Virus record (IMG/VR): IMGVR_UViG_3300043446_004437
Span: 62,001-126,000 of that record
Length of the DNA stretch: 64,000 nucleotides
Reading direction: 5' to 3' (one strand)
Origin: a virus
The translations under genes and the position numbers were made by a program. Under the pieces are notes generated by a model. It searched no databases. It was not told the origin of the DNA and worked only from the letters and a program-made list of their open reading frames with translations. Within the stretch, counting starts at the first letter, position 1. Each line of letters starts with the position of its first letter. Below are positions 9,924 to 42,029 of this stretch, piece by piece.

Positions 9924-12557
9924 ATGAACATGCCAACATTCAAGCCAGCTTTACGCTTGCACACAATGCACAACGGTCCGTTGCGCAGCATTAACGATTA
10001 TCAATTTGGGTTCTATGATGTAGGCTTTGCTCGCCAAGCACTACAATATCTTAACTCTGTTGAAGATGTTGAGAACCCAATCTTTAAGATGGCTACCATG
10101 CCAATTCCAACCAGCAAGGCTGAAGCAAAGATTGCAGAAGCCTACATTCGGAACCCAAACATCTGCTATTCTGTAGTAGACAAAAACAAAATTGTTCTCG
10201 TACAGATTAAAGGCAACGACGGTTGGCTTGATGTGTACAAGAAGCTTGGTTATGAAATTCTCAGCGGTGACAAAACAGCAAAGCGTTTGAAGACTTTTCA
10301 TCGCGCAGCTTTGCTCAACGCACATTTCGAAAAGCATGAAATCAATGTTAAGATTGTTAATTCAGACGAATATTCATCTTGGTCATATGAAGATCCATCT
10401 GTAGTTGAATGGATTCGCAATGAATATCCTAACGTAGATGTTACAGATCCTAAAGTCATTGAGCGTTTGCTTGACGGTGGTTTCGTAATTTCTCGCAAAT
10501 TCATTCAGCGAGCAGTAGAGAACCTTCCTGTTTACGAACCACACAAAACGCTCGACACAAAAGAATATTATTATGACTGGCGTGTCCGCAAAAACTTCAT
10601 TAAAGATATGATGGAATGTTCAATCTTCAATACTCGTATTGTATTTGAACTTGGCTTTCTTAAAGGCAATGCCATCGTATCAGACAACATGCCAGAAGGC
10701 ATAGACGTCATCACTAGTCGAGCCAACATCAAGAACGAAATCAAGTATCACAATGGTTTCAAGTTTCTTGCAGAACCAGTTGGCTCATATGAATCAGTTC
10801 TTACTGACACTCAAACTGTAATCAATTTGCCAAAATTGTTTCCGCTCAACGATCTTGAATACTGGCTTGATGAAGAGTACAAAAAGATCTTTGATCTTGC
10901 CACATCCGACAAACTTTTGACCAACTGGCGTGCAGTTTACAAGCGTCAGTTTCGCAAAATACATGAGGCGGAAGACGAAGAAGCTTATGCTCGCATGAAC
11001 TATGTCGGTTACCGTTGGCGTAAGTTGGGCATGAAAATTACTGATTCGCCATGGCTCTTTGAAACTTTGGCAATCAGTCATGCCCGACCCTTTGCCGACT
11101 CTTCCAAGCCTCGTATCCCAATTCCATGCGCAATTAGCGAGCAGGTTATTCCTGAGTCGCTTTCTCGCATGGCAGGCTATGACGTAGAAGTAGACATGGG
11201 CAAGATCCGCCGCATCGAAGAACTTGGAGTGCACGTCGTTAGCGACCTTGACTGGCTCGAGATGTATGAATCTCATGGCGGTCATGACGAGGACGACTAC
11301 TTCAAGCTGTTCTATCGCACCATGCGTGGTGGAGAATATGATGGCAAGAAAGTTGTCATCATATGTCGTTCTCCAAATGATCTTGGCGAGTATTCAATCT
11401 TTGAATACACTGAAGGTGACTGGTATCCAACTTGGACTAACTCTCAAGGTATTCCTTTAGAGTTTCCAGAAGTAAACGGACGGGATTGGCCTAAGCGTTT
11501 GAGCAAAGCCATCTATGATGGCGATATCTCATATGCTGGTCTCCCATCCAAATCTTTGCCCAAAAAGAAGTTTGAACCAGCACCGTATTCTCCAGACGAT
11601 GTTATTCGAGACATGAACATTGCAATGGCCGGCGGTCAAATCGGTGGATATGTAAATGCTTGCATGCTGCATTCATCTGTTATTCACCGCCACCGACCAG
11701 TGCAGCTGTGTACTTTGGAGACTGCTCTCGACAAATGCATCAACCCAGACTCTGTCGAAGATGTAATCGCAATTGATGCAGAAGCTCGATCCATCGTACG
11801 CCAAATCATTCAGTCTAAAACTCCGATTGACCAATTTGTTTGGTCAACTCGTGGTTCTTCTAGACTGCTCGAAGCAGATGATGAACTCATCCTTGATGAC
11901 AATGGCAAGCTTACAATGATTTCTAAACTTTGTTACGACAAGTTTGCTGAGCACTGTGCGCGTGTTCGTGAATGGTCGCAGGCTAATGCCCGCCCATCTG
12001 ACGAACGCATCGCACAACTTGGTAACAGTCAACTGCAAATGTTTTATCACGCCCTGCCCATTGTCAACCAATTCCGCTCAGGTATTTGGTCTATCAATAC
12101 ATCTGAAGCAACTGCAGAAAATGGCAACATTGTTCGTAACTCATGGGAATATCTCTATTCAAAGCAAGTTGACATCATCAACTCGTTTGAACTTGAATCA
12201 GATCGTCATGACTTTGTACTTGCATTGTATCAAGTCTGCTTGACTGTTCCAACCAAAGGTGGCAAAATCACGGATCATTATATGATGAACCGTTTTGTTT
12301 ATCCTTATTTGGAAGCAGCATTGCAGTATTATGGCATTGGCCGATCTGTCAGCTTCTTTTCCGATGAAGAAGGTGAAGTAAAGATTGTTGAATCCATTGT
12401 TACCGAATGGAAGTTTACCGATCCAGATGGTAACACTACAATCTTTAACGATCCCGTTGAGTTTCAACAAGCTCAATCCATTTATTCTAAAGTTGAATTT
12501 GTTACAAATTCTGCTTCGTTACTTCCAAACGAAACTCGTTTAACTTCAAAATACTAA
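9924..12557 (+). CDS. 877-aa protein of unknown function, possible polymerase-like core
   Basis: ATG after AGAAGGGG. A long soluble protein without signal or membrane segments and without Cys clusters. The region around residues 400-520 has a beta-rich stretch with HGGHDEDDY (residues 451-459). Its acidic cluster after HGG loosely recalls the metal-binding DxDGD loop of double-psi-barrel RNA polymerases, including the one-chain phage types; the third Asp is not at the usual spacing, so this is only a hint. C-terminal 350 residues are helical. It is the largest plus-strand gene and is followed by a small membrane protein and a helicase gene. Confidence 0.8.
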   Translation: MNMPTFKPALRLHTMHNGPLRSINDYQFGFYDVGFARQALQYLNSVEDVENPIFKMATMPIPTSKAEAKIAEAYIRNPNICYSVVDKNKIVLVQIKGNDGWLDVYKKLGYEILSGDKTAKRLKTFHRAALLNAHFEKHEINVKIVNSDEYSSWSYEDPSVVEWIRNEYPNVDVTDPKVIERLLDGGFVISRKFIQRAVENLPVYEPHKTLDTKEYYYDWRVRKNFIKDMMECSIFNTRIVFELGFLKGNAIVSDNMPEGIDVITSRANIKNEIKYHNGFKFLAEPVGSYESVLTDTQTVINLPKLFPLNDLEYWLDEEYKKIFDLATSDKLLTNWRAVYKRQFRKIHEAEDEEAYARMNYVGYRWRKLGMKITDSPWLFETLAISHARPFADSSKPRIPIPCAISEQVIPESLSRMAGYDVEVDMGKIRRIEELGVHVVSDLDWLEMYESHGGHDEDDYFKLFYRTMRGGEYDGKKVVIICRSPNDLGEYSIFEYTEGDWYPTWTNSQGIPLEFPEVNGRDWPKRLSKAIYDGDISYAGLPSKSLPKKKFEPAPYSPDDVIRDMNIAMAGGQIGGYVNACMLHSSVIHRHRPVQLCTLETALDKCINPDSVEDVIAIDAEARSIVRQIIQSKTPIDQFVWSTRGSSRLLEADDELILDDNGKLTMISKLCYDKFAEHCARVREWSQANARPSDERIAQLGNSQLQMFYHALPIVNQFRSGIWSINTSEATAENGNIVRNSWEYLYSKQVDIINSFELESDRHDFVLALYQVCLTVPTKGGKITDHYMMNRFVYPYLEAALQYYGIGRSVSFFSDEEGEVKIVESIVTEWKFTDPDGNTTIFNDPVEFQQAQSIYSKVEFVTNSASLLPNETRLTSKY

Positions 12558-12566
12558 GGAGACAAT

Positions 12567-12797
12567 ATGAAGATCGCATCCAAACTTGGAAAGTATACAG
12601 CTAAATTCTTTCGTTTTATGAAACGCAAAGAAACAAGAGCAGCGTGGCTTACAGCCGAATGGGCTGTTAGCACACTTGCTTTTGCTACAACAATTTATGC
12701 TTTACTTTTGATTGGTGCACCATTGTCAGCACTGTTATTTTTAGCAGTGTATGGTTATGGCACCTATGCCTTATTCTCATTTATTACTGCTAAATAG
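12567..12797 (+). CDS. Small membrane protein
   Basis: 76 residues, AAGGAG before the ATG. A basic N-terminal helix (KFFRFMKRKETR) is followed by two hydrophobic segments at about 28-48 and 52-72. It lies 9 bp after the 877-aa gene, so they are cotranscribed. Function unknown. Confidence 0.7.
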   Translation: MKIASKLGKYTAKFFRFMKRKETRAAWLTAEWAVSTLAFATTIYALLLIGAPLSALLFLAVYGYGTYALFSFITAK

Positions 12798-16018: not shown

Positions 16019-16105
16019 GCCCAGGTGGCGGAATTGGTAGACGCAAGGGGCTTAAACCCCCTCGCTATGTGAAATAGCGTACGGGTTCGATTCCCGTCTT
16101 GGGCA
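16019..16105 (+). tRNA. tRNA-Leu (TAA)
   Basis: Type II tRNA of 87 nt. Acceptor GCCCAGG/CTTGGGC, anticodon loop CTTAAAC (anticodon TAA, reads UUA), a long variable arm (CGCTAT/ATAGCG) and T-loop TTCGATT. No encoded CCA. Confidence 0.95.
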
Positions 16106-16122
16106 CAATACAAAGGATTTTT

Positions 16123-17568
16123 ATGCGGAATAAAAATTTTGTATACAAGTTTCTGTTATCAGCAACTCTGTTGTCAGCATTACTTGTTAACACAAAAAAT
16201 ACTACAGTTCTAGCTGGAGATGTTGCACCTGCAACTACTACAGTAAAGTTCTACAGAAAGACAACTAATGTTGTTCTTCCAGCTTTAGGAACTGTTGGAC
16301 CAAAAATTGGTATTGATACAGCATACAACAATAACTATCGAGGCCAAGACACTTACATTGTTTTGTTAGATACTGGCATAGAATCATCTCATCCATTTTT
16401 TGGTGGAAGAGTTGCACTTGAAGCATGCTTTACCGCAAGATGCCCTAATGGACAGACTTCTATGGTTGGACCAGGAGCTGCTGCACCTGTTCACTGGCAT
16501 GGTACTCATACTGCAGGAATTGCAGCTGGTGCTAATTCTTCTATTCGTGGAATTGCACCCAGTGCAAAAATTATTGCAGTCAACGTATTTGCATTAGACG
16601 GTTCCGCATCAGATGCCGATTTAATTAGAGCATTACAATGGGTTGATTCAATATCTAACGATTATAATATTGTTGCAGTCAACATGTCTTTAGGCACACC
16701 TGGAACATTTAGATCATCATGCAATTCTTATATTCCTGATCTTACTGCAATTATCTCAACGCTAAAGTCCAAAAATATTGCAACCGTTGTATCTGCTGGC
16801 AACGAAGGCCAAGTTGGCATGAGTTCACCAGCATGTATTACAGATACTGTCAGTGTTGCAGCAACATACTTTTTGGCCGATGGTAGTGACAGAGTTACAA
16901 GCTTTAGTAACGTAAATGAATTGACAGATTTATCTGCTCCAGGATACAACATTGTATCTTCTAAACTCATGGGCTCATATGGTTCCTCTTCAGGAACTTC
17001 AATGTCTGCCCCAATGGTTGCTGGAGCTTTTGCAGTCTATCGTTCTAAGTTTGGCTCACAGCCAGTTGATAAAGTTGTTTCTGATTTTCAATCTACCGGC
17101 ATAAATGCTAAAGATGATTATAGTGGAATTGTTACAAAAAGAATAGATTTTAAATCTATGTTTGCTGGCGGTGGTACAACACCAACACCAACTACCACAA
17201 TTCCAGTCACAACAACAACTGTACCTGGTTCAACAACAACCACTACCGTTCCTTCTGATGAAGATGACGAATCAGAAGATTATTTGAATATTCCTTATAT
17301 TATATCATTAAAGAAATATTCAACAAGATTGTCATATATCCAACTTGATTTTACTTATCGATACACTAACATACCTGTATCTAAATTTATTTTAAGATGC
17401 AGATATACAGATGGTAAAATAGTTGATAAGACAATACCCAACAGAAATAGAACAACTAATTTTTATTTAGTTTCTATTTCTTCTGTTAATATTCGCTCAT
17501 GTAGAATGGCCGCTGTTTCCACTTCTGAAACAATAGGTACATTTTCAAAATATATATTGGTAAAATAA
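16123..17568 (+). CDS. Secreted subtilisin-like serine protease (S8)
   Basis: 481 residues. Signal peptide at 1-31 (hydrophobic core, cut near VLAG). Catalytic triad in the family motifs: Asp83 in LLDTGIESSH, His126 in HGTHTAG, Ser293 in GTSMSAPMVAG, with oxyanion Asn227 in SAGNEG. After the catalytic domain comes a Thr/Pro linker (residues about 350-390) and a C-terminal beta-rich domain of about 95 residues. The architecture predicts export and cell-surface or virion association. ATG 16123 follows AAAGGA right after tRNA-Leu. Phage-coded secreted subtilases are uncommon. Confidence 0.93.
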   Translation: MRNKNFVYKFLLSATLLSALLVNTKNTTVLAGDVAPATTTVKFYRKTTNVVLPALGTVGPKIGIDTAYNNNYRGQDTYIVLLDTGIESSHPFFGGRVALEACFTARCPNGQTSMVGPGAAAPVHWHGTHTAGIAAGANSSIRGIAPSAKIIAVNVFALDGSASDADLIRALQWVDSISNDYNIVAVNMSLGTPGTFRSSCNSYIPDLTAIISTLKSKNIATVVSAGNEGQVGMSSPACITDTVSVAATYFLADGSDRVTSFSNVNELTDLSAPGYNIVSSKLMGSYGSSSGTSMSAPMVAGAFAVYRSKFGSQPVDKVVSDFQSTGINAKDDYSGIVTKRIDFKSMFAGGGTTPTPTTTIPVTTTTVPGSTTTTTVPSDEDDESEDYLNIPYIISLKKYSTRLSYIQLDFTYRYTNIPVSKFILRCRYTDGKIVDKTIPNRNRTTNFYLVSISSVNIRSCRMAAVSTSETIGTFSKYILVK

Positions 17569-17650: not shown

Positions 17651-17965
17651 ATGCATTGGTTTGATTCTGCATTATGCAAGGGGTTAACACATATCTTTTT
17701 TGCAAAAGATTCTGAAAGACCACAAGCTACAATAAAGCGCGAGGCAATAGCTCAAAGCGTTTGTAACCAATGTGAAGTTTTTGAACAATGCAGAACATAT
17801 GCTAGAACTCACGGTGAAATAGGATATTGGGCCGGCGAAAATGAATATGATAGATATCTTTTGGGCTTTATGCCCAAAGGTGGTTTTGGTCCAATTACCA
17901 GATCCGTTAGTGCTTACGCAAAAAGAAAACAACAATTACTTAAAAAGGAAATAACAACATCATGA
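17651..17965 (+). CDS. WhiB-family iron-sulfur regulator (second)
   Basis: 104 residues, ATG behind TGGAGC. Cys9, Cys38, Cys41 and Cys47 match C-x28-C-x2-C-x5-C; the turn motif is GYWAG rather than GIWGG. The C-terminal basic tail (YAKRKQQLLKK) would bind DNA. Coupled to an XRE-type regulator by ATGA, so the two may act together in phage gene control. Confidence 0.88.
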   Translation: MHWFDSALCKGLTHIFFAKDSERPQATIKREAIAQSVCNQCEVFEQCRTYARTHGEIGYWAGENEYDRYLLGFMPKGGFGPITRSVSAYAKRKQQLLKKEITTS

Positions 17966-23954: not shown

Positions 23955-24281
23955 ATGTTCATTCAACGCAAGCCTTGGATGCAGGAAGCATCATGTGTTG
24001 AGCAAAGTTTAGATATATTTTTCCCCAACAGATATACAGAAAACACCGTTTCTAAACCATTTTCTGTATGTGAACAGTGTTCTGTTAGATGCGAATGTTT
24101 ATACGAAGCTATGACAACTGAATCTGTTGGCATATGGGCGAAAACAACAGACTATCAAAGATCAGTTATCATGTCTAGATTTTTTAATGATAACCCAAAA
24201 AATATTAACATTGACACAATATTCCAGATCGTTGAAAACAATAATTATTCTATACCAATTTCATTAAAATACGATCAATAA
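23955..24281 (+). CDS. WhiB-family iron-sulfur regulator (third)
   Basis: 108 residues. Cys14, then Cys39-x2-Cys42-x5-Cys48 (CEQCSVRCEC, with one extra Cys) and the turn GIWAK. The tail is less basic than in the other two copies. Located just ahead of the protease and ubiquitin-like block, so it may regulate that block; that link is inference from position. Confidence 0.85.
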   Translation: MFIQRKPWMQEASCVEQSLDIFFPNRYTENTVSKPFSVCEQCSVRCECLYEAMTTESVGIWAKTTDYQRSVIMSRFFNDNPKNINIDTIFQIVENNNYSIPISLKYDQ

Positions 24282-26302: not shown

Positions 26303-26320
26303 TTGAAGAAAGAGATTATC

Positions 26321-27973
26321 ATGGATAAAGTTTCATATTCTTTTGTTAAAGATCAAGACAATATTATCTTTAGATCAAAAGTAAAGTCATTTAATTTAGA
26401 CCATGTTACAGATAAAGATATTGCTTCGTTTTACACCGCATTTTCTGACTATTCTTATTTTGATACTGGTCTTTTGCCTTTAGATGGCACCGGTCTTTTA
26501 GGTGTACGCAAAGCCGGCAACCACACTCAAGTCATATATCAGTACAAACCAGGCATGTATTATGTTAACTGGGGTGCTTACGAGAAAGACTCAAATTACA
26601 CAAAATACTATTTTGCTCAACCATACAGAATTGTTATCATAGATTTTCTTGATAACAATCTTTTAGGTGCAAGAACATTTTATGCTGTCGAGCCAGCAAT
26701 ACATTCAAATGTTCAGCTGTATCATGTTAATCTACCAAACATCAATTGCCAAGGGTACCGCGGAAATGCTGTTGGTTGGATATGTTTATATCACAATGAA
26801 GATTGGTCTAAGTTACCTTTTAACGAAAGACTCAATAGAGCATTAGAGCGTTGTTCTGGCGTAGAAGTTTACAATGACGCCAACATGAGCGAAACAGATG
26901 GTCCTCGTTTTTATGAACAATCTGAAATGCCTGATTACACTTATAGCCCAACTTTATGGGAGAACAAATCAGCAGAAGAGGGTTGGGAATGGACATTAGA
27001 TCCATCTCATTGGATACCTGTTAAAGTAAGATCAATTGATTCCCAAACCGATCATTATGCAAACGGCATTCCTCTTACCCTTCTTACGGCAATAACTGGC
27101 AATTACAAAGCGTACTACACTGACACTTATTTGCCAAAACCAATTAACGCTATTACCAGACCTGATTTACAATTACCTAATTCTCAAGTTGTAAACTGGT
27201 TTGTGCAGTCTTACAATACTTCTTCAACAACATTTTCTGGTCTTGATCCTTATTCTCAAAGCCAAGCTCATAGAGAACATGCTGCAACTATACAGCAAAC
27301 TTTATTTGATAACGATGATGAAGAAGAAGACGAAGATTCAGAAAATGAATCAGATGAATTATACTGCCCAGTTGTTCATGAATTTGTTTCTTCTGATTCT
27401 TGTGGCGATAAAAGTTCAACCTATCAAGATGAAGAAGGAAACTGTTACGAAGTTTGTCAATCTTGCGTTTATCACAACGATTTGATTTATGCAAAAAATA
27501 CTATGAAGCTACATAGCTCTTCGGAAAATTTGCATTATCAAGAATGTGAAGAAGAATATTATTATCTTCCAGCTATTAATTCTCCGTACAAAATTTGTCC
27601 AAATTGTGACACTTTACACATATCATTGCTTAAAGATGCTGCAATATTTCCTATTTGGAAATACACCAACCAACCAGGCGATCATGCTTGCTCAACTTGT
27701 ATAGCATCTCATCCAGACAAATATACACAATGTTCAGAATGTTCAACTGATGTTCCTCACAATACTTCTAAATTCTTTAATGATACTTTACATTATGATG
27801 AAGATTATGAAAAAGTTACTTGCGAATCTTGTTTGAAATTAGCTGATAACACTATTCAAACAGAGTTTACTCAAAAAAATTTAGTTCCTCCTTCTGAATT
27901 AATTATAACGGCTATACAAGATTTAGTGAATAAAATTAATTCTACTCCAAACACTGCTGAAGAACCATTTTAA
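26321..27973 (+). CDS. E2-like ubiquitin-conjugating-type protein with zinc-rich C-terminus
   Basis: 550 residues from ATG 26321. Residues about 100-165 read like the core of an E2/UBC fold: PYRIVIID strand, then LYHVNLPNINCQG and VGWICLYHNEDW, closely resembling the E2 pattern of a Pro-Asn turn followed by a catalytic Cys in ICL and a downstream Trp. The candidate catalytic residue is Cys155. The N-terminal FDTGLLP and YQYKPGMYYV blocks are shared with the protein at 36759. Residues about 345-520 carry four or more CxxC pairs, a zinc-ribbon or RING-like array, after an acidic linker. It ends AEEPF. Its neighbours (JAB, ThiF, small beta-grasp protein) support the E2 call; it corresponds in position to PRTRC protein B. 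Activity is unproven. Confidence 0.62.
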   Translation: MDKVSYSFVKDQDNIIFRSKVKSFNLDHVTDKDIASFYTAFSDYSYFDTGLLPLDGTGLLGVRKAGNHTQVIYQYKPGMYYVNWGAYEKDSNYTKYYFAQPYRIVIIDFLDNNLLGARTFYAVEPAIHSNVQLYHVNLPNINCQGYRGNAVGWICLYHNEDWSKLPFNERLNRALERCSGVEVYNDANMSETDGPRFYEQSEMPDYTYSPTLWENKSAEEGWEWTLDPSHWIPVKVRSIDSQTDHYANGIPLTLLTAITGNYKAYYTDTYLPKPINAITRPDLQLPNSQVVNWFVQSYNTSSTTFSGLDPYSQSQAHREHAATIQQTLFDNDDEEEDEDSENESDELYCPVVHEFVSSDSCGDKSSTYQDEEGNCYEVCQSCVYHNDLIYAKNTMKLHSSSENLHYQECEEEYYYLPAINSPYKICPNCDTLHISLLKDAAIFPIWKYTNQPGDHACSTCIASHPDKYTQCSECSTDVPHNTSKFFNDTLHYDEDYEKVTCESCLKLADNTIQTEFTQKNLVPPSELIITAIQDLVNKINSTPNTAEEPF

Positions 27974-28013: not shown

Positions 28014-29744
28014 ATGCAAGAAGAAGAAGTGCAGCCTCAAGTAACCCTTGATCAGCTTCAATATTTTTGGATGCCGTCAGGCGTTCCATGTTTTATTGCT
28101 GACAGGGATACAATTTGTGATATTGTTGAAGACATTGGCTTTAACATATATTATCTTTTGGCCAACAAAAAGACAGTGAAAACAATTCAGCAGCCTGCAA
28201 ATAACAACAAAGTTGGTTACACCACCACAACCCAGCCTGTGCAGGTTGCTACTTACAATTCTTCATTATTTAAGGTTGTGAATAATTTTGTTGGTAGGGT
28301 AATTAAACCATCTGATGATGAATTGCCAGCAGAGTTTTATGTTGCAGAAGAGTGTTGTGAATACAACATGCCTGAATTGCCTTACGTTCTTGTTGAAAAG
28401 ATGGATCAATTCTTTAGACTTGTTTATTCTCAGCACGGCACGGAGTCAATTGTTCTTCTTACTTACGATACAGAAAAACAGGGATCTGATGGTTGGGGTG
28501 TTTTAGTTCCTGATCAGGTAAATACTCCTGCTCACTGCAAATACGATGCGGACAGCATCGCTGCAATCAAACCAGAAAATGTTATGATTGTTGGTTCTGT
28601 TCATAGTCATCCAGAAATGTCTGCGTATGCTTCTGGTACCGACCACGCAGATCAAGCAGATTTTGATGGTCTTCACATCACCTATGGTTGGCAGAAGAGC
28701 GTCAACAATGGCGCCACTCAGTACCACATAGAACTTCAGATGTCTGGATCTTCTTATACCTTGAAACCTGAAGATGTTTTTGAGAATTTTTATATTCAAA
28801 AAGAACCTGATTCTGAAGTTGTAGAATGGTCTACTAAAGTAAAAAAAGCACACCCCCCTATAGCGGGGGGAGTCAGCACGTCGGCACCAGCGCAGGTTCC
28901 AGCGCCGTACAACCAGTCTCATCGGGCTCAACAACCGTATCAAAACTCGACGCAACATACGGCGGCTGGGGAGCCTACGATTGGTAAAAGACTTTTAACC
29001 AAACACTGGAACGACATGGTTGCCGATCTTGGTGACAATGCCATTGTTATTGTTGAAGCAGACCCCCAAATAGCTTATGCTTCAATATGTCCTGCTTGCG
29101 ATTACGATCTTGATACTCAAGATTTTAGAGCAGGATATTGTGCTTGTTGCGATGTTCCAGTTGTGTTAAACAGTCATAGTATTTTTCAAATAGCTTCGAT
29201 ATACAACAGATATTGTCTTGAGAGATCTTTAGATCCAACTCAAATGGTTCCATATTTGTATGGTGAAAACGAAAAGTTTGAACACTTTTTGATGAAACTA
29301 AATATTGAACAAGAAATACACGATATACACAAATATAATTATGGCATAGATGACGATGAAGATGTTCCATTAAGTTTAATAGAATCTTCTGATAATTATG
29401 ATTATTATCACAGTCTAAACGATAATGATTATGATGGAACAAAAACCATATGTTGCAATACACCTATGGAAAATTACATTAATAACTGTAATTGTCTTGT
29501 TCCAATTCTTTATGAAGATTTAAGTGCATTTGAATCGGCAGTTGAAACTATTGAGCTTTATGACACTAATTCTTCTTGTATATATTGCGCTCATTATTAT
29601 ACTCCTGCATGTCCTGCATATCGTTATTTATTAACTCAATATGTTACAAATAAATACGGTTTTGATCTTGAAACCCAAAGAAACGGCATAATACCGTGCA
29701 CTCATTATGAGTCAATGTATGCAGATACATTAGAAAAGGAATAA
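28014..29744 (+). CDS. JAB/JAMM-domain isopeptidase-like protein
   Basis: 576 residues behind TAGGAGACC. The MPN+/JAMM metal site is complete: His197-Ser-His199-Pro, then Ser207 and Asp210 in HSHPEMSAYASGTDHAD, with a probable acid at Glu144 (HGTESIVLLTYD). This is the zinc site of deubiquitinases such as Rpn11 and of PRTRC protein A. Residues about 285-325 are an Ala/Pro/Gln linker encoded by strikingly GC-rich DNA. The C-terminal half has CPACDYD and CACCDVP and further Cys pairs, likely zinc ribbons. Three bases separate it from the E1-like gene. Predicted role is trimming or removing the small modifier. Confidence 0.82.
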   Translation: MQEEEVQPQVTLDQLQYFWMPSGVPCFIADRDTICDIVEDIGFNIYYLLANKKTVKTIQQPANNNKVGYTTTTQPVQVATYNSSLFKVVNNFVGRVIKPSDDELPAEFYVAEECCEYNMPELPYVLVEKMDQFFRLVYSQHGTESIVLLTYDTEKQGSDGWGVLVPDQVNTPAHCKYDADSIAAIKPENVMIVGSVHSHPEMSAYASGTDHADQADFDGLHITYGWQKSVNNGATQYHIELQMSGSSYTLKPEDVFENFYIQKEPDSEVVEWSTKVKKAHPPIAGGVSTSAPAQVPAPYNQSHRAQQPYQNSTQHTAAGEPTIGKRLLTKHWNDMVADLGDNAIVIVEADPQIAYASICPACDYDLDTQDFRAGYCACCDVPVVLNSHSIFQIASIYNRYCLERSLDPTQMVPYLYGENEKFEHFLMKLNIEQEIHDIHKYNYGIDDDEDVPLSLIESSDNYDYYHSLNDNDYDGTKTICCNTPMENYINNCNCLVPILYEDLSAFESAVETIELYDTNSSCIYCAHYYTPACPAYRYLLTQYVTNKYGFDLETQRNGIIPCTHYESMYADTLEKE

Positions 29745-29746
29745 TT

Positions 29747-30505
29747 ATGAACCCTAAACGTTTTGTTGTTATAGGAGCTGGTGGCGTAGGCACATGGCTT
29801 ATTTCAGGTTTAGTAAGATTGCTTGAATGGAAAGCTCCAGGTTCAGGTTTGATAATTGTTGACGGCGACAATTATGAACAAAAGAACAAAGAGCGTCAAG
29901 AGTTTACAAAAATTGGCAATAAAGCTGTTGTTAAAGCTCATGAACTTACACCTAGTTTTCCAAAAACAACTATTATTCCTGTACCCAAATGGGTTGTAGG
30001 AGACGACTTTAAAGGAGTTACGACAGATGAAGATTCTCCAAAAATTAAAGCATCAGCTTTATTATCTGAAGGAGATGTGGTCTTTGCGGTTGTCGATAAT
30101 TTTGCTGCGCGCAAGATTATTTTTGATGCGGCGTCGCGGTTAGACAACATTGATGTATTTACTGGTGGCAACGACGATGCTTTATTTGGTTCAATATATC
30201 ATTATCAAAAAAGAGATGGCGTTGCTATAACAGAACATCCAGCAGTGTTTCACCCCGAATATGATAACGCACCAGACAAAAATCCTGGTGAATTATCATG
30301 TCAAGAAAGATCTGAAATAGAAGGTGGAACACAGTTACTTGCCACTAATATGGCAGTTGCTGCATTTATTCTTGGTAGAGTACAAAAGACAATTGTGCTA
30401 GACCAAAGCCCCGAAGAAACAGAGATATATTTTGATTTAGGTATCGGTAAATCCGAACCATATAACAGAATGGTATCTTATGTTTCAGAACCTGTTCAAG
30501 TATAA
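29747..30505 (+). CDS. ThiF/E1-like activating enzyme
   Basis: 252 residues. Rossmann nucleotide loop GAGGVG at residues 10-15, acidic strand end IIVDGDNYE with Asp39, then the conserved Asn47-x-x-Arg50-Gln51 that contacts ATP in the E1/MoeB/ThiF family. DNFAARKII gives the second conserved Asp/Arg region. Cys185 in LSCQERSEIEGGTQ is apparently the only Cys and sits where the catalytic thioester Cys is expected. It would adenylate the C-terminal Gly of a ubiquitin-like protein, very likely the product of the next gene. Equivalent to the ThiF protein of PRTRC cassettes. Confidence 0.88.
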   Translation: MNPKRFVVIGAGGVGTWLISGLVRLLEWKAPGSGLIIVDGDNYEQKNKERQEFTKIGNKAVVKAHELTPSFPKTTIIPVPKWVVGDDFKGVTTDEDSPKIKASALLSEGDVVFAVVDNFAARKIIFDAASRLDNIDVFTGGNDDALFGSIYHYQKRDGVAITEHPAVFHPEYDNAPDKNPGELSCQERSEIEGGTQLLATNMAVAAFILGRVQKTIVLDQSPEETEIYFDLGIGKSEPYNRMVSYVSEPVQV

Positions 30506-30523: not shown

Positions 30524-30775
30524 ATGGAAAACAATATGTCAAACGCTTCCGCATCTCAGCCAACTGGTATGGCAAATTTGAGGTTTGGTGTTTACAACCA
30601 GCCTACAAATGTTGCTGGAAAATCTGTTCAGCAAGCGCGCGAACAGTTTTCTAAAATTTGGGGTATCCCAAATGACGCAGTTGCTTACAAGGGCAAGGAC
30701 AAGCTCGACGAGAATTACGTTATTCAGCCAGGTGACAACGTAGAATTCCACCGTCGTGCCGGCGAGAAGGGCTGA
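30524..30775 (+). CDS. Ubiquitin-like (beta-grasp) modifier candidate ending in Gly
   Basis: 83 residues behind AAGGAGC. After a 15-residue Ser/Ala/Asn lead come two strands (NLRFGVYNQPTNV), one helix (SVQQAREQFSKIWGI), and GKDKLDENYVIQPGDNVEF, the beta-grasp order seen in ThiS, MoaD and ubiquitin. The last residues are RRAGEKG with Gly at the very end. PRTRC protein C has the same length class and also ends in KG, as I recall. Located directly between the E1-like gene and a strong terminator. Conjugation through the terminal Gly is inference. Confidence 0.72.
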   Translation: MENNMSNASASQPTGMANLRFGVYNQPTNVAGKSVQQAREQFSKIWGIPNDAVAYKGKDKLDENYVIQPGDNVEFHRRAGEKG

Positions 30776-30874: not shown

Positions 30875-32479
30875 ATGTTATTTGATGAAATAAAACTTGG
30901 TTATCCATCTTTATGGCTTAAAACCACAGAATATTCAAGAGCCGCAGAAAGTTTAGTTTCTTATGATTTTAGAGACTTTTATACAATAAATTTTGAGTCT
31001 GGCTTTTCTCAGTATGTTGGTGGTGCATGGAAAACAATTCTTATAGAATCTATAAATCCAGAAAATGGAGAAACAATCCATCAATCTACATTTGATCCTT
31101 CTGTATCGTTAAATTATTTACTTAATCTTAAATCAGATAAGCCAGTTACTTATTTGCTACCAATTTTAGGCAAACCTGATTCTGTTCTTCTTCCATACAT
31201 TTCTTTTGTTGCTGCTTTAAATGATAATTACAGAAAGAACTTTTGGCTTGATAATATTGAAGCAACATCGCTTCAAGTAGTATTTATATCTTCTGCCGAT
31301 GCTCCAGAAGAATATTTGCATATGTTTAAAACTGTTCAGTTTTCTTATCCTAATTCAGAAGAACTTTTTACAGTAGTTAATCATATCGATACTTCTTCTG
31401 CTGGAAGATTTGTTGATCAAAATGAAATCAAAGATATTGTTCGTTCTGGCTTAGGTCTTACAGAAGATCGTTTTGTTGATCTTTGTTTACGTTCTATTGT
31501 CAACAACAATAAGATTGATAGCAAATATGTTTATGATCAAAAGATGGCTCATATTAAAGAAGCTGGTATTTTGGAGATTATTAAACCTAAAATATCTTTT
31601 GATAATATTGGTGGCTTAGATAATATTAAAGATATTATTCAAAGAACAAAACTATTGTGGGCTAACCGGGAACAAGCAAAATCTTTTGGCGTTGTTCCGA
31701 TTAGAAGAGTTCTTATGGTGGGCGTTCCCGGCACCGGCAAGTCTGCTATTTGTCAAGCAACTGCGAAAGAACTTGGCCTTGACTTGGCCCGTACTGGCAT
31801 TAGCCAAGTTATGAACTCTTTTGTCGGCAAATCAGAAGCAAACATGAGAGCTGTTTTTGATCAGATTAAAATGATGACTCCGCTTTGTGTTTGGATCGAC
31901 GAGTTTGGTCGCGATCTTTCAGGTGGCTCTAGCAGTTCTCATGTTGACGCAGGCACTACTGATCGTGTTCACGGTGAATTTTTGACAGGATTGCAGGAAC
32001 TTCCAGAAGATACTTTCCTTATGTGTGCCGCAAACCAGCTAGATAATCTTCGTCCAGAAATGCTTCGTGCAGATCGTTTCGACAAGATAGTCTTTGTTGG
32101 TTTGCCTTCACATCAAGAAAGAAAAGATATCTTTAAAATTATTCTTAAAGATATTGAAACTGATCACATCTTTGATTACGATGCACTTGCGGAAAAAGCA
32201 CAGTACTTTACTGGCGCAGAAATTACCGCACTAATCAAAGAAGTTAAATTCTTTGTTGTTTCTTCACAACTTCGACCAATCAATACTCAAGATATTATAT
32301 CTTATATTCCTACTGTAAGAAATATTCTCTGGAACAAAAACAGAGATATGATTAAAAACATGTATCAGTATGCTCTTGAACAATGGGATTGGGCTTCTAC
32401 TGAACAGCTACAAGATGCTAAAATGATTATACACGGTACGAGAAGCAACTCTGATAAAGACTTAGCTTGGAAAATATAA
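30875..32479 (+). CDS. AAA+ ATPase, unfoldase-like
   Basis: 534 residues. Residues 1-235 are an N-terminal domain; the AAA core begins FDNIGGLDNIKDII. Walker A GVPGTGKS at 283-290, Walker B CVWIDE with Asp342-Glu343, sensor 1 CAANQ, and an arginine-finger region ending LRADRFDKIV. The pattern of the core is closest to the FtsH/proteasomal/Ycf46 branch of classical AAA proteins. It lies right after the modifier terminator and in the same region as a proteasome-like peptidase gene (40976), so a role as the ATP-driven unfolding partner is attractive but inferred. No membrane segment. Confidence 0.88.
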   Translation: MLFDEIKLGYPSLWLKTTEYSRAAESLVSYDFRDFYTINFESGFSQYVGGAWKTILIESINPENGETIHQSTFDPSVSLNYLLNLKSDKPVTYLLPILGKPDSVLLPYISFVAALNDNYRKNFWLDNIEATSLQVVFISSADAPEEYLHMFKTVQFSYPNSEELFTVVNHIDTSSAGRFVDQNEIKDIVRSGLGLTEDRFVDLCLRSIVNNNKIDSKYVYDQKMAHIKEAGILEIIKPKISFDNIGGLDNIKDIIQRTKLLWANREQAKSFGVVPIRRVLMVGVPGTGKSAICQATAKELGLDLARTGISQVMNSFVGKSEANMRAVFDQIKMMTPLCVWIDEFGRDLSGGSSSSHVDAGTTDRVHGEFLTGLQELPEDTFLMCAANQLDNLRPEMLRADRFDKIVFVGLPSHQERKDIFKIILKDIETDHIFDYDALAEKAQYFTGAEITALIKEVKFFVVSSQLRPINTQDIISYIPTVRNILWNKNRDMIKNMYQYALEQWDWASTEQLQDAKMIIHGTRSNSDKDLAWKI

Positions 32480-35273: not shown

Positions 35274-36734
35274 ATGCAATACAACATTTTATCCTGTAAT
35301 GAACAGGACACAACGCTTTACAATACAAGTTACAATATGAATAATTATTATTCTTATATTCATAATATAACTAAGTATTTGTCACAAAACGGCACAGATA
35401 TTACCGCTCCAATACTTACAACTGTGTCAATGCGTCGAACTGTTAGCGTTTCTACAGATAGAGTTTATGATTCCATTAACGCCAACGCAGCAGGAAAATA
35501 CAACCCATCATTTTATCCAATGGCTGTACGCTATATATCTGCTAAAGGAACTTACGTAGTTGAACGACCACCTTTTCAACTAGAAGTTGACTATAGAATG
35601 GGCTCTGCTCATTCTGGTCATCCCAAAATGCCGCCTGTAAAAATTTGGGTTCCATGGACTGTTATGGTTTTTTCAGCTTCTTCTTTTGCAGAAGGTAATT
35701 TTTCTGAAGCTCAGCTTTATTTTTCTGATACCTCTTTGCAATCGCTAGACCAGCATCTAGTCCCCTGCTTTTATCCCAATTCTTATAACGATGCCAGAAT
35801 ATGTTTTTCTAATTCTTTAAGTGATTTTTCAGATGTTTTAGATATGAAGGAATTTGAAAACTTCAATATATCTTACATCTATAATTATATCTTTAATAAT
35901 TATATGATGGGTGGATGGAACTCTGACTTACACTCAAATCTACTAGGATCTCTTTCGACTCACAACTTCTCTGTTATTAATTCTTATCCAGAATTAAAAC
36001 TCTTTTTGCAACCTTCTAGCGATCAATCATTTTACGAAAAACTATCTACAGTTTTTCCTAAAGAACTTTTTTCAAAATTAAAAAGATTTTATAAACAAGA
36101 GTTCAATTATTTTAAAAGCAGAATTAGTCCTGAAAAATTGTTTGTAAGAAATTTTGGTATATTTTCTGCTTTTACACTAGAACAAAAGTTAAATTTTATT
36201 TCTTCGATAAAAGATCTTACATATTCTCAAGTTAAAGATCGTTATACGCTTTCTGCAATTGTTCAAAGAATTGACAAAAATGATTCTATTGTTGATTCTT
36301 CATCTAAAAATGCTTTACTTACTTCAATAAATTCAGATTATTTTAATTATGATTATAGTGAAGTAGATTATCATGTTTACTTTTATAATTATAATCCTCA
36401 GGATTTACAAAATCATCATCGTTTATCTTCTCTCTTTTCCAACAACTTGTGTGCGTCTTTAATTGGCGACATGATTACTTGTTTTAATGACGAAGAACCG
36501 ATTGCTTTTGCTGTTAATGCTCAAACTGGTTCTTATGACATAATTACTAATTATTCTGCGTACGATTATATAAAAGAAATCATAGACACTGTCGTTGCTA
36601 AAGCTCAAGAATTTCTACAGGAAAATTCTTCAGACAAAAACAAACAAAAAGTTTGTACGTATATTTCTAATGAAATAAACCATAATTTTACTCCTGATAA
36701 AGTTGAACATGCTTTAAAGTATTCTTTTTCCTAA
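35274..36734 (+). CDS. E2-like paralogue (486 aa)
   Basis: ATG eight bases after the previous stop, preceded by GAGGTC. Blocks in order: YVVERPP (residues 94-100), WVPWTVMVF with Pro127-Trp128, LYFSDTSL, then HLVPCFYPNSYNDARICFSN with candidate catalytic Cys177. The same order (ERPP, Pro-Trp, an Asn-x-Tyr turn then Cys) occurs in the gene at 36759, and resembles the E2/PRTRC-B plan of strand, Pro-Asn turn and Cys. The long C-terminal half is helical with no zinc site. Probable conjugating-enzyme-like or inactive E2-variant protein. Confidence 0.52.
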   Translation: MQYNILSCNEQDTTLYNTSYNMNNYYSYIHNITKYLSQNGTDITAPILTTVSMRRTVSVSTDRVYDSINANAAGKYNPSFYPMAVRYISAKGTYVVERPPFQLEVDYRMGSAHSGHPKMPPVKIWVPWTVMVFSASSFAEGNFSEAQLYFSDTSLQSLDQHLVPCFYPNSYNDARICFSNSLSDFSDVLDMKEFENFNISYIYNYIFNNYMMGGWNSDLHSNLLGSLSTHNFSVINSYPELKLFLQPSSDQSFYEKLSTVFPKELFSKLKRFYKQEFNYFKSRISPEKLFVRNFGIFSAFTLEQKLNFISSIKDLTYSQVKDRYTLSAIVQRIDKNDSIVDSSSKNALLTSINSDYFNYDYSEVDYHVYFYNYNPQDLQNHHRLSSLFSNNLCASLIGDMITCFNDEEPIAFAVNAQTGSYDIITNYSAYDYIKEIIDTVVAKAQEFLQENSSDKNKQKVCTYISNEINHNFTPDKVEHALKYSFS

Positions 36735-36758: not shown

Positions 36759-37943
36759 GTGGATCTTATAAATAATTTTATTATAGCCGATAATGAACGC
36801 GATCATTATTATTGGCATACAGGCTTTAAACCTTTTGTTCGCTACAGTAGCGTTGTATTAGACGAAACTCATACGATAACTGATAAAGATACAGTCGCTC
36901 AGTTATCATCTAGCTTTTTTAATTCTTTAGTTAGTTATAAAACTCAGTCTTTTGATTCTGGTTTAATTCCGCCAGGCTTAAAAATGCTTGGTTCTAATTA
37001 TCTAGTATTTGAAAGGCCTCCGACAGTTAAAAACATTTTTTATGTTCCTGCACATAAAAGCAGTGTTCCAGATAACACCGATAACTTGCAGCAGGTTTAT
37101 GCTTTACCAATTCCTTGGCAATTATATTTTGTATATTTTAATCCTGATATGTACACTTATTCTGTATATATGTTTTTCATGAATACAAGTATCAATAGTC
37201 CTAATCAAAATCTTTATCTTCCACCACTTCCAAATTTTTATACTCATTCTTTATTGTGTCCTCCAGTTATGAGTACAATGGAAGATGTTGACCGATACTC
37301 TAAAAATGTTTCTGGCATCATGCACTGCGCTTACGATTGGGTTTGGAATTCTGGCACAAACCATGATTTAACAGAAGCATGCATGCACGTTTCTTTTCAG
37401 TGCCCTAAAGAAAATTCTGTTATGAAGTATTTAGACGATAATGTATACAATGTATATTTTAACAAAAATCGTTTTTTAACATCTAATAGATATCAAGCTA
37501 GCACATCATACATGAGTCATTTATTTTCTTCTTGGGAAAAATGTACTTTATCTGAAGTTTGTAATTTTGTTTGGCCAAATACATCTGCGCCTTTTAGAAA
37601 TTTTAATTATGAGTCTAACGACATTACAGGCACCAGTGTTTATCAGGATAATTTAGTAAGCTATTTAGATAATGGCGATTATGACATGGATGATATTCAA
37701 GATATTATTGAGAATGATTCTTATGATCATAATGATTACATTAATTACTTGTATGCAGAAAAATTGATATCAGAAGACGAAATGTTTAATGATTTAAACA
37801 GAGCTTGGAGTCATGTTTATACTTATGAAGAAGTTATCCCAAAATTAATTGCTGACGTTTCTACAACTTTTTCTAGAACTACTAACAGTTTTTCACGCAC
37901 TTTAGTTTCTATTGATCAGGCTCGTCGTAATATTTCTGCTTGA
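36759..37943 (+). CDS. E2-like paralogue (394 aa)
   Basis: GTG start behind AAAAAGGATT. FDSGLIP (residues 65-71) matches FDTGLLP of the E2-like protein at 26321; YLVFERPP (81-88) matches ERPP of the protein at 35274; LPIPWQLYF with Pro119-Trp120 and LYLPPLPNFYTHSLLC with Cys167 complete the shared blocks. This protein therefore links the other two into one family. An acidic, helical C-terminal region follows (NGDYDMDDIQDIIE). Whether Cys167 is catalytic is unknown. Confidence 0.52.
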   Translation: MDLINNFIIADNERDHYYWHTGFKPFVRYSSVVLDETHTITDKDTVAQLSSSFFNSLVSYKTQSFDSGLIPPGLKMLGSNYLVFERPPTVKNIFYVPAHKSSVPDNTDNLQQVYALPIPWQLYFVYFNPDMYTYSVYMFFMNTSINSPNQNLYLPPLPNFYTHSLLCPPVMSTMEDVDRYSKNVSGIMHCAYDWVWNSGTNHDLTEACMHVSFQCPKENSVMKYLDDNVYNVYFNKNRFLTSNRYQASTSYMSHLFSSWEKCTLSEVCNFVWPNTSAPFRNFNYESNDITGTSVYQDNLVSYLDNGDYDMDDIQDIIENDSYDHNDYINYLYAEKLISEDEMFNDLNRAWSHVYTYEEVIPKLIADVSTTFSRTTNSFSRTLVSIDQARRNISA

Positions 37944-40125: not shown

Positions 40126-40574
40126 TGCAGCCCGTATTACATTGTCCTGAAATAATACATTCAATTGAAGCAACTTTAGATGAAGAAGATTCATTTGAAC
40201 TCGTAAAAAATTTTTCTCAGGTTTTTCCTTTTTATTATCATTACAGTGTCTCTCAACATGGCTTTAAACAGGTTCTTGATTTAGCTACTACTTTTTCTGC
40301 TCTTCATTCTAGAGTAAAAATAAAAATAAGTGGTTTTGAACAAACAATAAATTCATCTATTCCTTTAGATGTTTTACGTTACAAGATGCTTCCAGATGGC
40401 TCTTATTGCTCTCTAGGAAGCTCTAGGATCGCTAATCAACCTAGTTACATAGTAGAGGGCGCTTTATGGTCAAATGGCTTTTATTATTTGACTAGAGAGC
40501 AAGATTCAATTAACATACTTGATTTACATTTTTATGTTGACCAGTATACAAAAACGATGCACAGGTACATATGA
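40125..40574 (+). CDS. Hypothetical protein
   Basis: 149 residues, ATG sharing one base with the preceding stop. Soluble alpha/beta with aromatic-rich C-terminal half. Coupled to the KTSC gene by ATGA. Unknown. Confidence 0.62.
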   Translation: MQPVLHCPEIIHSIEATLDEEDSFELVKNFSQVFPFYYHYSVSQHGFKQVLDLATTFSALHSRVKIKISGFEQTINSSIPLDVLRYKMLPDGSYCSLGSSRIANQPSYIVEGALWSNGFYYLTREQDSINILDLHFYVDQYTKTMHRYI

Positions 40575-40861
40575 CAATTAAATCTTATTTTTTCCGCGAT
40601 AGTTCTTTTATAACTAATGTTTCCTATAGTGAAGATACAGAAGTTTTATATATTAAATTTAATTCTGGTACCACATGGGTTTATTATGATGTATCTCAAG
40701 AAGTTTATAATAGACTTGTAAAGTCTACTTCTGTTGGTGAATATTTTAATAAAAACATTCGAAATAAATATTCATCTCAAAGAATTAATTATAAAATTGA
40801 GGATAGCCAAAATGTCCAGGAACAAGAAAAAGAAGAAAAAGAACAGAAATCTTTATCATAA
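40571..40861 (+). CDS. KTSC-domain small protein
   Basis: 96 residues. FITNVSYSEDTEVLYIKFNS, then WVYYDVSQEVYNRLVKSTSV, then GEYFNKNIRNKY follow the KTSC domain pattern (Tyr-x-Tyr-x-x-V-P... then GxYFNxxIR). KTSC domains occur alone or near aminoacyl-tRNA-synthetase-like and phage proteins; exact function unknown. Acidic/Lys/Gln tail. Confidence 0.75.
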   Translation: MTIKSYFFRDSSFITNVSYSEDTEVLYIKFNSGTTWVYYDVSQEVYNRLVKSTSVGEYFNKNIRNKYSSQRINYKIEDSQNVQEQEKEEKEQKSLS

Positions 40862-40979
40862 TTATTATAATTCTTCTGTTTCTGTAACTTTTGATCAGAT
40901 TCAACATTTGGCAGTACAGGTGTTTGGTTCTCGTTTTTACCAGCATAATGAACCAAATGATGATATAATAAATACATGA
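40812..40979 (+). CDS. Small basic peptide overlapping KTSC gene
   Basis: 55 residues from ATG 40812, in another frame, starting within the KTSC gene and ending four bases into the peptidase gene (ATGA). Very Lys-rich N-terminus (MSRNKKKKKKNRN), then a short helix. The coupling to the next gene gives the main support. Confidence 0.45.
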   Translation: MSRNKKKKKKNRNLYHNYYNSSVSVTFDQIQHLAVQVFGSRFYQHNEPNDDIINT

Positions 40980-41587
40980 CGACCATCGTTGCTTTACAAG
41001 GTGATAATTTTGCTGTCGTATATGTAGATTCTCGTATATCAACATCTGATTCTTCTGGTTTTATATCGCAGGTTTCTACCTTAAAAGAAGGTTCTGGTAA
41101 AGTAGCATTAAACGGAAAGTATTTGTTGGGTGCTGCCGGAGATGTGAGGGCAATTAACATTTTGCATCACGTTTTTCAGCCTCCTACTCCCCCTCCAAAT
41201 ATGAAAGGTAAAAAACTAGATCAGTTTTTTACTGCTAAGTTTATACCTGCTTTGCGTGAATGTTTTGAGCAGCAGGGATACGCAATGCCAGACATAGAAG
41301 AAAAAGAACATATCGCAGAACAATCTTCAACAATACTTGTTGTTATACATGGCACAATATATGTTGTTGATGGAGATTATTCTTGGATATCTGATTCTTC
41401 CGGAATGTATGCTTTAGGTACCGGAGCACCTTATGCTTTAGGCGCTATGCAAGCATTGAATCTAAACAAAAAACTTACCATACCTCAGGCTAAAAAAATG
41501 GCCTTAAAAGCTTTAACCACCGCTGCCAAATTCGACCCACACACCGGATCTCCTTTTCATTATCATTTACAGGAACAGGCTAAATAG
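40976..41587 (+). CDS. HslV/20S-proteasome-beta-like Ntn peptidase
   Basis: 203 residues. Starts Met-Thr-Thr-Ile-Val, as HslV does; removal of Met1 exposes Thr2 as the N-terminal nucleophile. VVYVDSRIS places Asp18 (mature Asp17) where proteasome subunits have their active-site Asp. KYLLGAAGDVRAINIL equals the 'GxAGxxxDA' helix of HslV, and MYALGTGAPYALGAMQAL equals 'AIGSGGPYAxAAAxAL'. The active-site Lys is at 37 or 42 rather than mature 33, with a short insertion. Probably assembles into a ring peptidase working with an AAA+ unfoldase; the AAA+ gene at 30875 is the candidate partner. Its position in the ubiquitin-like region is striking. Confidence 0.8.
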   Translation: MTTIVALQGDNFAVVYVDSRISTSDSSGFISQVSTLKEGSGKVALNGKYLLGAAGDVRAINILHHVFQPPTPPPNMKGKKLDQFFTAKFIPALRECFEQQGYAMPDIEEKEHIAEQSSTILVVIHGTIYVVDGDYSWISDSSGMYALGTGAPYALGAMQALNLNKKLTIPQAKKMALKALTTAAKFDPHTGSPFHYHLQEQAK

Positions 41588-41666
41588 TTACTTTTTGACT
41601 TTTTACTGCTTACCTATATATAATGTCCAAAGTTTGTTATTTGGCAGATACAGTAAGGAGCAGTGA

Positions 41667-42029
41667 ATGCCGAAAGAAAAACTGGTTTGTGAACAATGTA
41701 AATCTTCTTGGCAGCGTGAACAATCTAGAGGCAGAAAACCTCGTTTTTGCCCTAATTGTTTAGCTTCTCCGCAAAACGTTGTTGGACCTTCTAAAACTGT
41801 AATAGAAGATTTCTCTTTGAGAAGACCAACCGTAAAGGCTTTGGATACTACAGATAAAGTTTTACCGGAGACTAAATACAAAGGTAAGAACTCTTGGGTT
41901 TGCGCACAATGCCAAACAACGCTTGAAACTTATGTTGGTTTGACAGAAGAGCCAATGCATTGGTGCAGAAAAAACAGCAGATCCTATATCCCGTACCAAC
42001 TTAAAGGTCGGCAAGAGGCGCAGGCTTAA
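41667..42029 (+). CDS. Two-zinc-ribbon protein
   Basis: 120 residues behind AAGGAGCAG. An N-terminal CEQCKSSW...CPNC ribbon and a second CAQCQTTL...W-C ribbon near residue 75-95. Such double ribbons bind nucleic acid or act as adaptors. Follows the peptidase gene by 80 bp. Confidence 0.68.
   Translation: MPKEKLVCEQCKSSWQREQSRGRKPRFCPNCLASPQNVVGPSKTVIEDFSLRRPTVKALDTTDKVLPETKYKGKNSWVCAQCQTTLETYVGLTEEPMHWCRKNSRSYIPYQLKGRQEAQA

Follow-up and report, generated by a model that had tools for sequence, protein, structure and literature searches.

A predicted proteasome/HslV-like threonine peptidase of phages and its alternation with a small protein in two genomic neighbourhoods

The presence of a proteasome- or HslV-like peptidase gene in a phage genome that also encodes an AAA+ ATPase and apparent ubiquitin-like proteins raises the question of whether the peptidase belongs to that machinery or acts by itself. 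The gene lies in a 64,000-nucleotide stretch (the window) taken from a virus record of 216,024 bases, and a first-pass annotation of the window had proposed that it contributes to a dedicated protease complex. The comparisons described below point instead to a self-contained threonine peptidase resembling the beta-proteobacteria proteasome homologue (BPH), encoded by an exchangeable accessory gene and not a fixed component of the AAA+/ubiquitin-like machinery, a reading to which we would assign a probability of about 0.6.

The peptidase gene and its predicted product

40976–41587 (+): proteasome/HslV/BPH-like threonine peptidase (Pfam, PHROG, AlphaFold2, Foldseek and profile evidence)
40979–40981 (+): codon of Thr1
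41027–41029 (+): codon of Asp17
41099–41101 (+): codon of the putative catalytic Lys (mature position 41)

The open reading frame at 40976–41587 encodes 203 amino acids beginning MTTIVALQGD, exactly as annotated. The product scores above the cut-off of Pfam PF00227 (Proteasome; 29.6 vs. 22.4 bits), and a search with the same model at the genome level scored a single peptidase fragment (17.9). It matches PHROG 1040 (“peptidase HslV family”) over its whole length (E = 6.5e-23), and a family profile built from eleven phage relatives matches HslV (E = 4e-14) and BPH (E = 2e-11) in the PDB, the latter aligned over nearly its full length. An AlphaFold2 (AF2) model built from 33 phage sequences (pLDDT 84.5, pTM 0.83) contains strands and four helices (57–66, 78–99, 151–161, and 169–186) in the expected order, and together with Foldseek indicates a four-layer alpha-beta-beta-alpha arrangement, so that the structure prediction proposed by the first-pass annotation as a check returned an Ntn-type fold. 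More than 1000 PDB structures match the model at E ≤ 0.001, led by BPH (5ovs; E = 5.5e-12) and then HslV, with proteasome beta subunits also among the best, and the best matches among viral structures are phage relatives, either annotated or unnamed. By sequence and model, the predicted product is therefore a proteasome/HslV-like Ntn peptidase and not a chance match. No defence model of PADLOC is matched by it.

Once the initiating Met is removed, Thr becomes residue 1 and Asp residue 17, as had been noted. The putative catalytic Lys is found at mature position 41, and not at 33 as its HslV equivalent (Lys33) is, because an insertion follows Asp17; the displacement of this residue by a short insertion had also been read correctly. 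The triad of Thr1, Asp17 and the Lys33 equivalent is present throughout the 33 phage sequences, among which Thr1, Asp17, Lys41, the GxG block, Asp186 and Thr189 do not vary, the Ser/Thr position of the GxG block being occupied by Ser in 22 and Thr in 11. The two glycine-containing blocks were described as GxAG and GSG-x-YA; the first is indeed present (GAAGD), but the second reads GTG-APYA, with Thr where the majority of relatives have Ser. In comparisons of the window gene with its nearest relatives, dN is 0.09–0.25 and synonymous differences are near saturation; as dN is far below dS, the peptidase is under purifying selection. These patterns suggest that the enzyme is catalytically intact and probably active. 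In the AF2 model the second helix is followed, before the next strand, by a 19-residue loop (residues 100–118) with five acidic residues, which exceeds the E. coli HslV counterpart in length in an alignment made by eye.

Proteins of this kind have been found in phages before, as the annotation had stated: PHROG 1040-type peptidases are annotated in several cultured phages, a scan of IMG/VR yielded 411 contigs carrying relatives, and the family is abundant in freshwater phages. The group to which the window peptidase belongs differs from PHROG 1040 in the insertion that separates Asp17 from Lys and in the greater length of its acidic loop. HslV (ClpQ) is alike in its Thr1/Asp17/Lys triad, GxAG and G(S/T)G blocks, and fold. 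However, the phage protein falls far short of the HslV equivalog cut-offs (TIGR03692, 27.2 vs. 157.75 bits; NF003964, 28.2 vs. 137 bits), has the shifted Lys and the longer loop, and no HslU was found next to its gene. BPH (PDB 5ovs, 5ovu) is the best structural match, in a comparison that uses a predicted monomer, although identity to the phage protein is only ∼21%. BPH possesses a long acidic loop and has no known unfoldase (PMC8665760); the loop predicted for the phage peptidase is likewise long and acidic. Two further group I proteasome homologues, PPH and AAH, have already been reported from phages (Fuchs et al., 2021; PMC8665760). PPH comprises ∼140 residues and lacks helix H2 (PMC8665760), unlike the window peptidase, which has 203 residues and all four predicted helices. 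AAH, the alpha-proteobacterial and actinobacterial homologue, was absent from the actinobacteria-specific phages in that survey (Fuchs et al., 2021; PMC8665760); the distribution of the weakly matching plasmid homologues described below agrees with that reported for AAH. Phage proteasome homologues have been catalogued in the literature, but we came across no account of what they do or with which partner.

Genomic contexts and transcription of the peptidase gene

Of 83 loci that were read, 73 place the peptidase in a head-morphogenesis module and 10 in a cassette of the type seen in the window, with no locus of mixed type. In the module, found in smaller phages, the order is terminase, metallophosphoesterase, peptidase, small protein, SPP1-like portal, scaffold-like protein and capsid, the peptidase thus lying between terminase and portal. 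The context in the window, which the first-pass annotation had called unusual, is unusual for the family, but as the minority one of two recurring contexts, and it is not decisive. Two label changes between context groups are needed on the peptidase tree; a tree holding the cassette group together was not rejected (p-AU 0.667).

The closest cultured relative is the lake phage Actinomycetia phage DSL-LC01, whose peptidase is 51% identical. Together with two WhiB-family genes in the window (17651–17965 and 23955–24281), this relationship points to a freshwater actinobacterium as the likely host. The window also contains an apparent secreted subtilisin-like protease gene (16099–17568). A host origin of the peptidase was considered and set aside, as neither of two scans of bacterial genomes yielded a close relative. 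The only bacterial homologues that came up are ∼30% identical proteins on rhizobial and Streptomyces plasmids, where they are encoded by stand-alone genes annotated as hypothetical (L293, 4001–4546; L294, 4001–4543).

Signals around the gene bear on whether it is transcribed independently:

40964–40969 (+): perfect TATAAT -10 element, separated by 6 nt from the peptidase ATG
41595–41624 (+): promoter-like TTGACT-18-TATAAT (11/12 consensus bases), before the next gene (41667)

The window has 66 + strand ORFs that start with ATG and encode at least 80 aa; of these, the peptidase gene alone has a perfect TATAAT 5–9 nt upstream. The position of this element 6 nt before the ATG implies that the peptidase is apparently expressed in the window from a leaderless, separately initiated transcript. 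The promoter-like site that follows the gene is a strong one, but the scan in which it was found gave, as a whole, no more such sites than shuffled sequences did. Several cassette-type relatives retain a TATAAT-like element at this position; in others the TATAAT lies farther upstream and is accompanied by a Shine-Dalgarno-like sequence. In morphogenesis-type phages the peptidase start is found at or near the phosphoesterase stop codon, and there the gene is therefore not an independent unit.

The ubiquitin-like/AAA+ cassette and its relationship to the peptidase

26303–27973 (+): candidate E2-like protein, LPN...GWICLY motif and Cys-rich C-terminal part (motif only)
28014–29744 (+): JAB/JAMM-domain protein, H-S-H...S...D motif (Prok-JAB, E = 3.5e-5, 24.1 bits, cut-off 25)
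29747–30505 (+): E1/ThiF-like adenylyltransferase (Pfam PF00899, 43.5 bits, above cut-off)
30524–30775 (+): small putative ubiquitin-like protein (Ubl), invariant C-terminal GEKG
30875–32479 (+): PAN/CDC48-type AAA+ ATPase (phrog_8638; profile matches), a constant cassette member
35274–36734 (+): candidate E2-like protein, PN...IC motif and conserved Cys (motif only)
36759–37943 (+): candidate E2-like protein, LPNF...LLC motif and conserved Cys (motif only)

These genes likely constitute a ubiquitin-like set. Their order is kept in relatives (E2-like candidate, JAB, E1, Ubl, AAA+, and further E2-like candidates) and continues, also as in relatives, with a MerR-like gene, SSB, UDG and KTSC. The C-terminus of the putative Ubl, RRAGEKG, is strongly conserved (the counterpart at 10763–11014 of L042 ends in the same way), and some relatives carry an appended Ser-Leu, which would suit a Ubl that undergoes processing and might be removable by a JAB peptidase. 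A 163-aa protein of another contig (L049, 1291–1779), encoded beside a distant E1, is in one stretch 36% identical to the Ubl of the window and is possibly a longer or tandem Ubl. A sequence-profile comparison of the putative Ubl with solved structures gave no match, and family profiles of the Ubl and E2-like proteins gave no useful match in the PDB. An E2-like fold for the 26303–27973 protein was likewise not recovered (pLDDT 51.8, no PDB match), which leaves motifs as the basis of that assignment. The combination of E1, JAB and a small protein with C-terminal Gly recalls the prokaryotic E1/E2/JAB/Ubl clusters, including those of PRTRC type (Iyer et al., 2006; PMC1779556), although the phage cassette adds the AAA+ and replication/repair genes, and the peptidase is inconstant. 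Scores are well below the PRTRC equivalog cut-offs (PRTRC_A, 20.4 vs. 101.8 bits; PRTRC_ThiF, 27.2 vs. 144.75 bits). In PADLOC, the broad IetA ATPase models are matched by the AAA+, and E1-E2 models, weakly, by the E1.

The AAA+ gene and the ubiquitin-like set to which the first-pass annotation referred, with its JAB, E1/ThiF and small Ubl-like genes, are real, but the AAA+ gene is not adjacent to the peptidase, which starts 8.5 kb beyond it. The main alternative to a self-contained peptidase is that a peptidase ring receives substrates unfolded by the AAA+ ATPase encoded at 30875, possibly after tagging with the phage Ubl by way of the E1 and E2-like proteins. Its attractions are that the AAA+ is of PAN/CDC48 type and carries an aromatic pore-loop-like FVG segment, that E1, JAB and a putative Ubl are encoded by the same phage, and that in all 13 peptidase-positive cassette records the AAA+ gene lies ∼10 kb upstream of the peptidase on the same strand. 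In addition, the AAA+ C-terminus (..DKDLAWKI), which follows a variable linker, resembles the HslU tail (..DEDLSRFIL). As a docking signal this tail is suggestive, but it was rejected since it does not follow the occurrence of the peptidase: two peptidase-positive relatives have lost it (..SSW, ..SNW), and peptidase-negative ones partly retain it (..VTWK).

The distribution of the two genes is more telling. Among 25 E1-bearing records, the AAA+ is found in 23 and the peptidase in only 13. Seven records contain the E1/Ubl/JAB/AAA+ cassette with another ORF in the peptidase slot; in the remaining E1-bearing records without the peptidase, the slot was either not read or falls outside the contig. 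A tree of fifteen cassette phages, built from seven genes, groups the six peptidase-negative records in one supported clade, and a single loss or replacement therefore suffices to explain them. Conversely, a search of 30 morphogenesis-type contigs encoding peptidases 64–75% identical to that of the window did not find the AAA+ in any of them, nor was it found in the complete genome of DSL-LC01, which also lacks an E1 of cassette type, or in four more distant peptidase-bearing phages. No HslU was found among the neighbouring genes read, although the host may supply one. Many of the compared records are fragments, in which single absences carry little weight; the double dissociation is nonetheless consistent and argues against an obligatory partnership. 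The cassette genes thus occur together with or without the peptidase, which is far commoner in phages where the AAA+ was not found, and the obligatory co-occurrence of peptidase and cognate AAA+ that characterizes pairs of the PAN-20S and HslUV type is not observed. New proteasome homologues without a co-occurring AAA+ have been described (Fuchs et al., 2021; PMC8665760). Given also the promoter-like element of the peptidase gene itself and a predicted fold nearer BPH than HslV, a dedicated AAA+ complex is ruled out as the main reading by the double dissociation and appears unlikely overall. In cassette phages the two may still be optional partners, in view of the shared AAA+-peptidase order and approximate spacing in the 13 records. 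A broader proposal is that the large cassette phages possess a complete, private ubiquitin-proteasome-like pathway (E1, E2-like, Ubl, JAB, AAA+, and peptidase) acting on host or phage proteins, in which the peptidase step is replaced in one subclade by the small protein described below; we regard this as quite unlikely.

Exchange of the peptidase with a phrog_25889 protein

40571–40861 (+): KTSC-domain gene (Pfam PF13619, E = 9.7e-19), upstream border of the peptidase slot, conserved in relatives
41667–42029 (+): small gene for a Cys-rich, zinc-finger-like protein, bounding the slot downstream in the relatives compared

In the peptidase-negative cassette phages the slot between these borders is occupied by an ORF of 107–127 aa; a peptidase remnant was considered, but the occupant is an unrelated, intact ORF. 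A corresponding replacement is found in the other neighbourhood, where, of 52 morphogenesis-type portal loci whose upstream sequence extends far enough, 43 have the peptidase and 9 have a 98-aa ORF in its position. Examples of the small genes are located at 12722–13087 of L090 and 6668–6961 of L211. Both types match PHROG 25889 (E 1.6e-6 to 6.5e-4) and have a W-DA...W...GYL...IP..M pattern (hhalign E = 0.0036), homology between them being indicated by PHROG and profile matches that are weak. Genome-wide, 40 records contain the peptidase without the small protein, 15 the small protein without the peptidase, and none both, the records being related and the counts therefore not independent. The portal tree calls for about four swaps between the two states, and well-supported branches force at least three of these. 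Swaps within one lineage can be explained by recombination between alike flanks. The same pair, however, alternates in two neighbourhoods with unlike flanks, which suggests functional exchange or incompatibility. This alternation is new and is the most informative observation made here.

It also bears on the two remaining explanations. The location of 73 of the 83 loci in a terminase-portal-scaffold-capsid module, and the finding of no S78 prohead protease, the one such family searched, in the window's record or in the sampled morphogenesis-type records, would be in keeping with a maturation protease that processes or clears scaffold or head proteins. Yet 9 of the 52 portal loci have the small non-peptidase protein instead, the large phages carry the peptidase in another neighbourhood, and the portal is SPP1-like; the SPP1 scaffold is not known to need a protease. 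Such a role is very unlikely. Equally improbable is that the protein serves not mainly as a protease but to interfere with a proteasome-type or other compartmentalized protease of the host, for example by mixing into its rings or binding its ATPase: the two WhiB genes suggest an actinobacterial host, 20S proteasomes are present in many actinobacteria, and a swap with a small non-peptidase would be easier to grasp if both bound or modulated a host target, but binding alone would not demand that all catalytic residues be invariant.

For the preferred reading, a self-contained BPH-like peptidase, the following sequence of events can be envisaged. The phage gene would encode an N-terminal-threonine peptidase of the proteasome-like group I, on the HslV/BPH side, with Thr1 probably exposed by methionine aminopeptidase and the catalytic triad completed by Asp17 and the shifted Lys. 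The subunits would most likely assemble into a self-compartmentalized ring barrel similar to that of BPH, the acidic loop narrowing its entrance, and such a barrel could degrade polypeptides that are small or unfolded with no need of a dedicated unfoldase. The gene would represent an accessory (moron-like) gene of actinobacterial phages, with its own transcription start in the window, and the phrog_25889 protein, when swapped into the slot, probably acts at the same step of infection through a different mechanism.

A nearby ubiquitin-like/AAA+ cassette should accordingly not be read as the obligatory partner of the peptidase. The exchange in two unrelated neighbourhoods hints, at the level of the genome, at what the peptidase takes the place of or competes with; if the two proteins do perform one task, a phage deprived of one would be expected to be rescued by the other.
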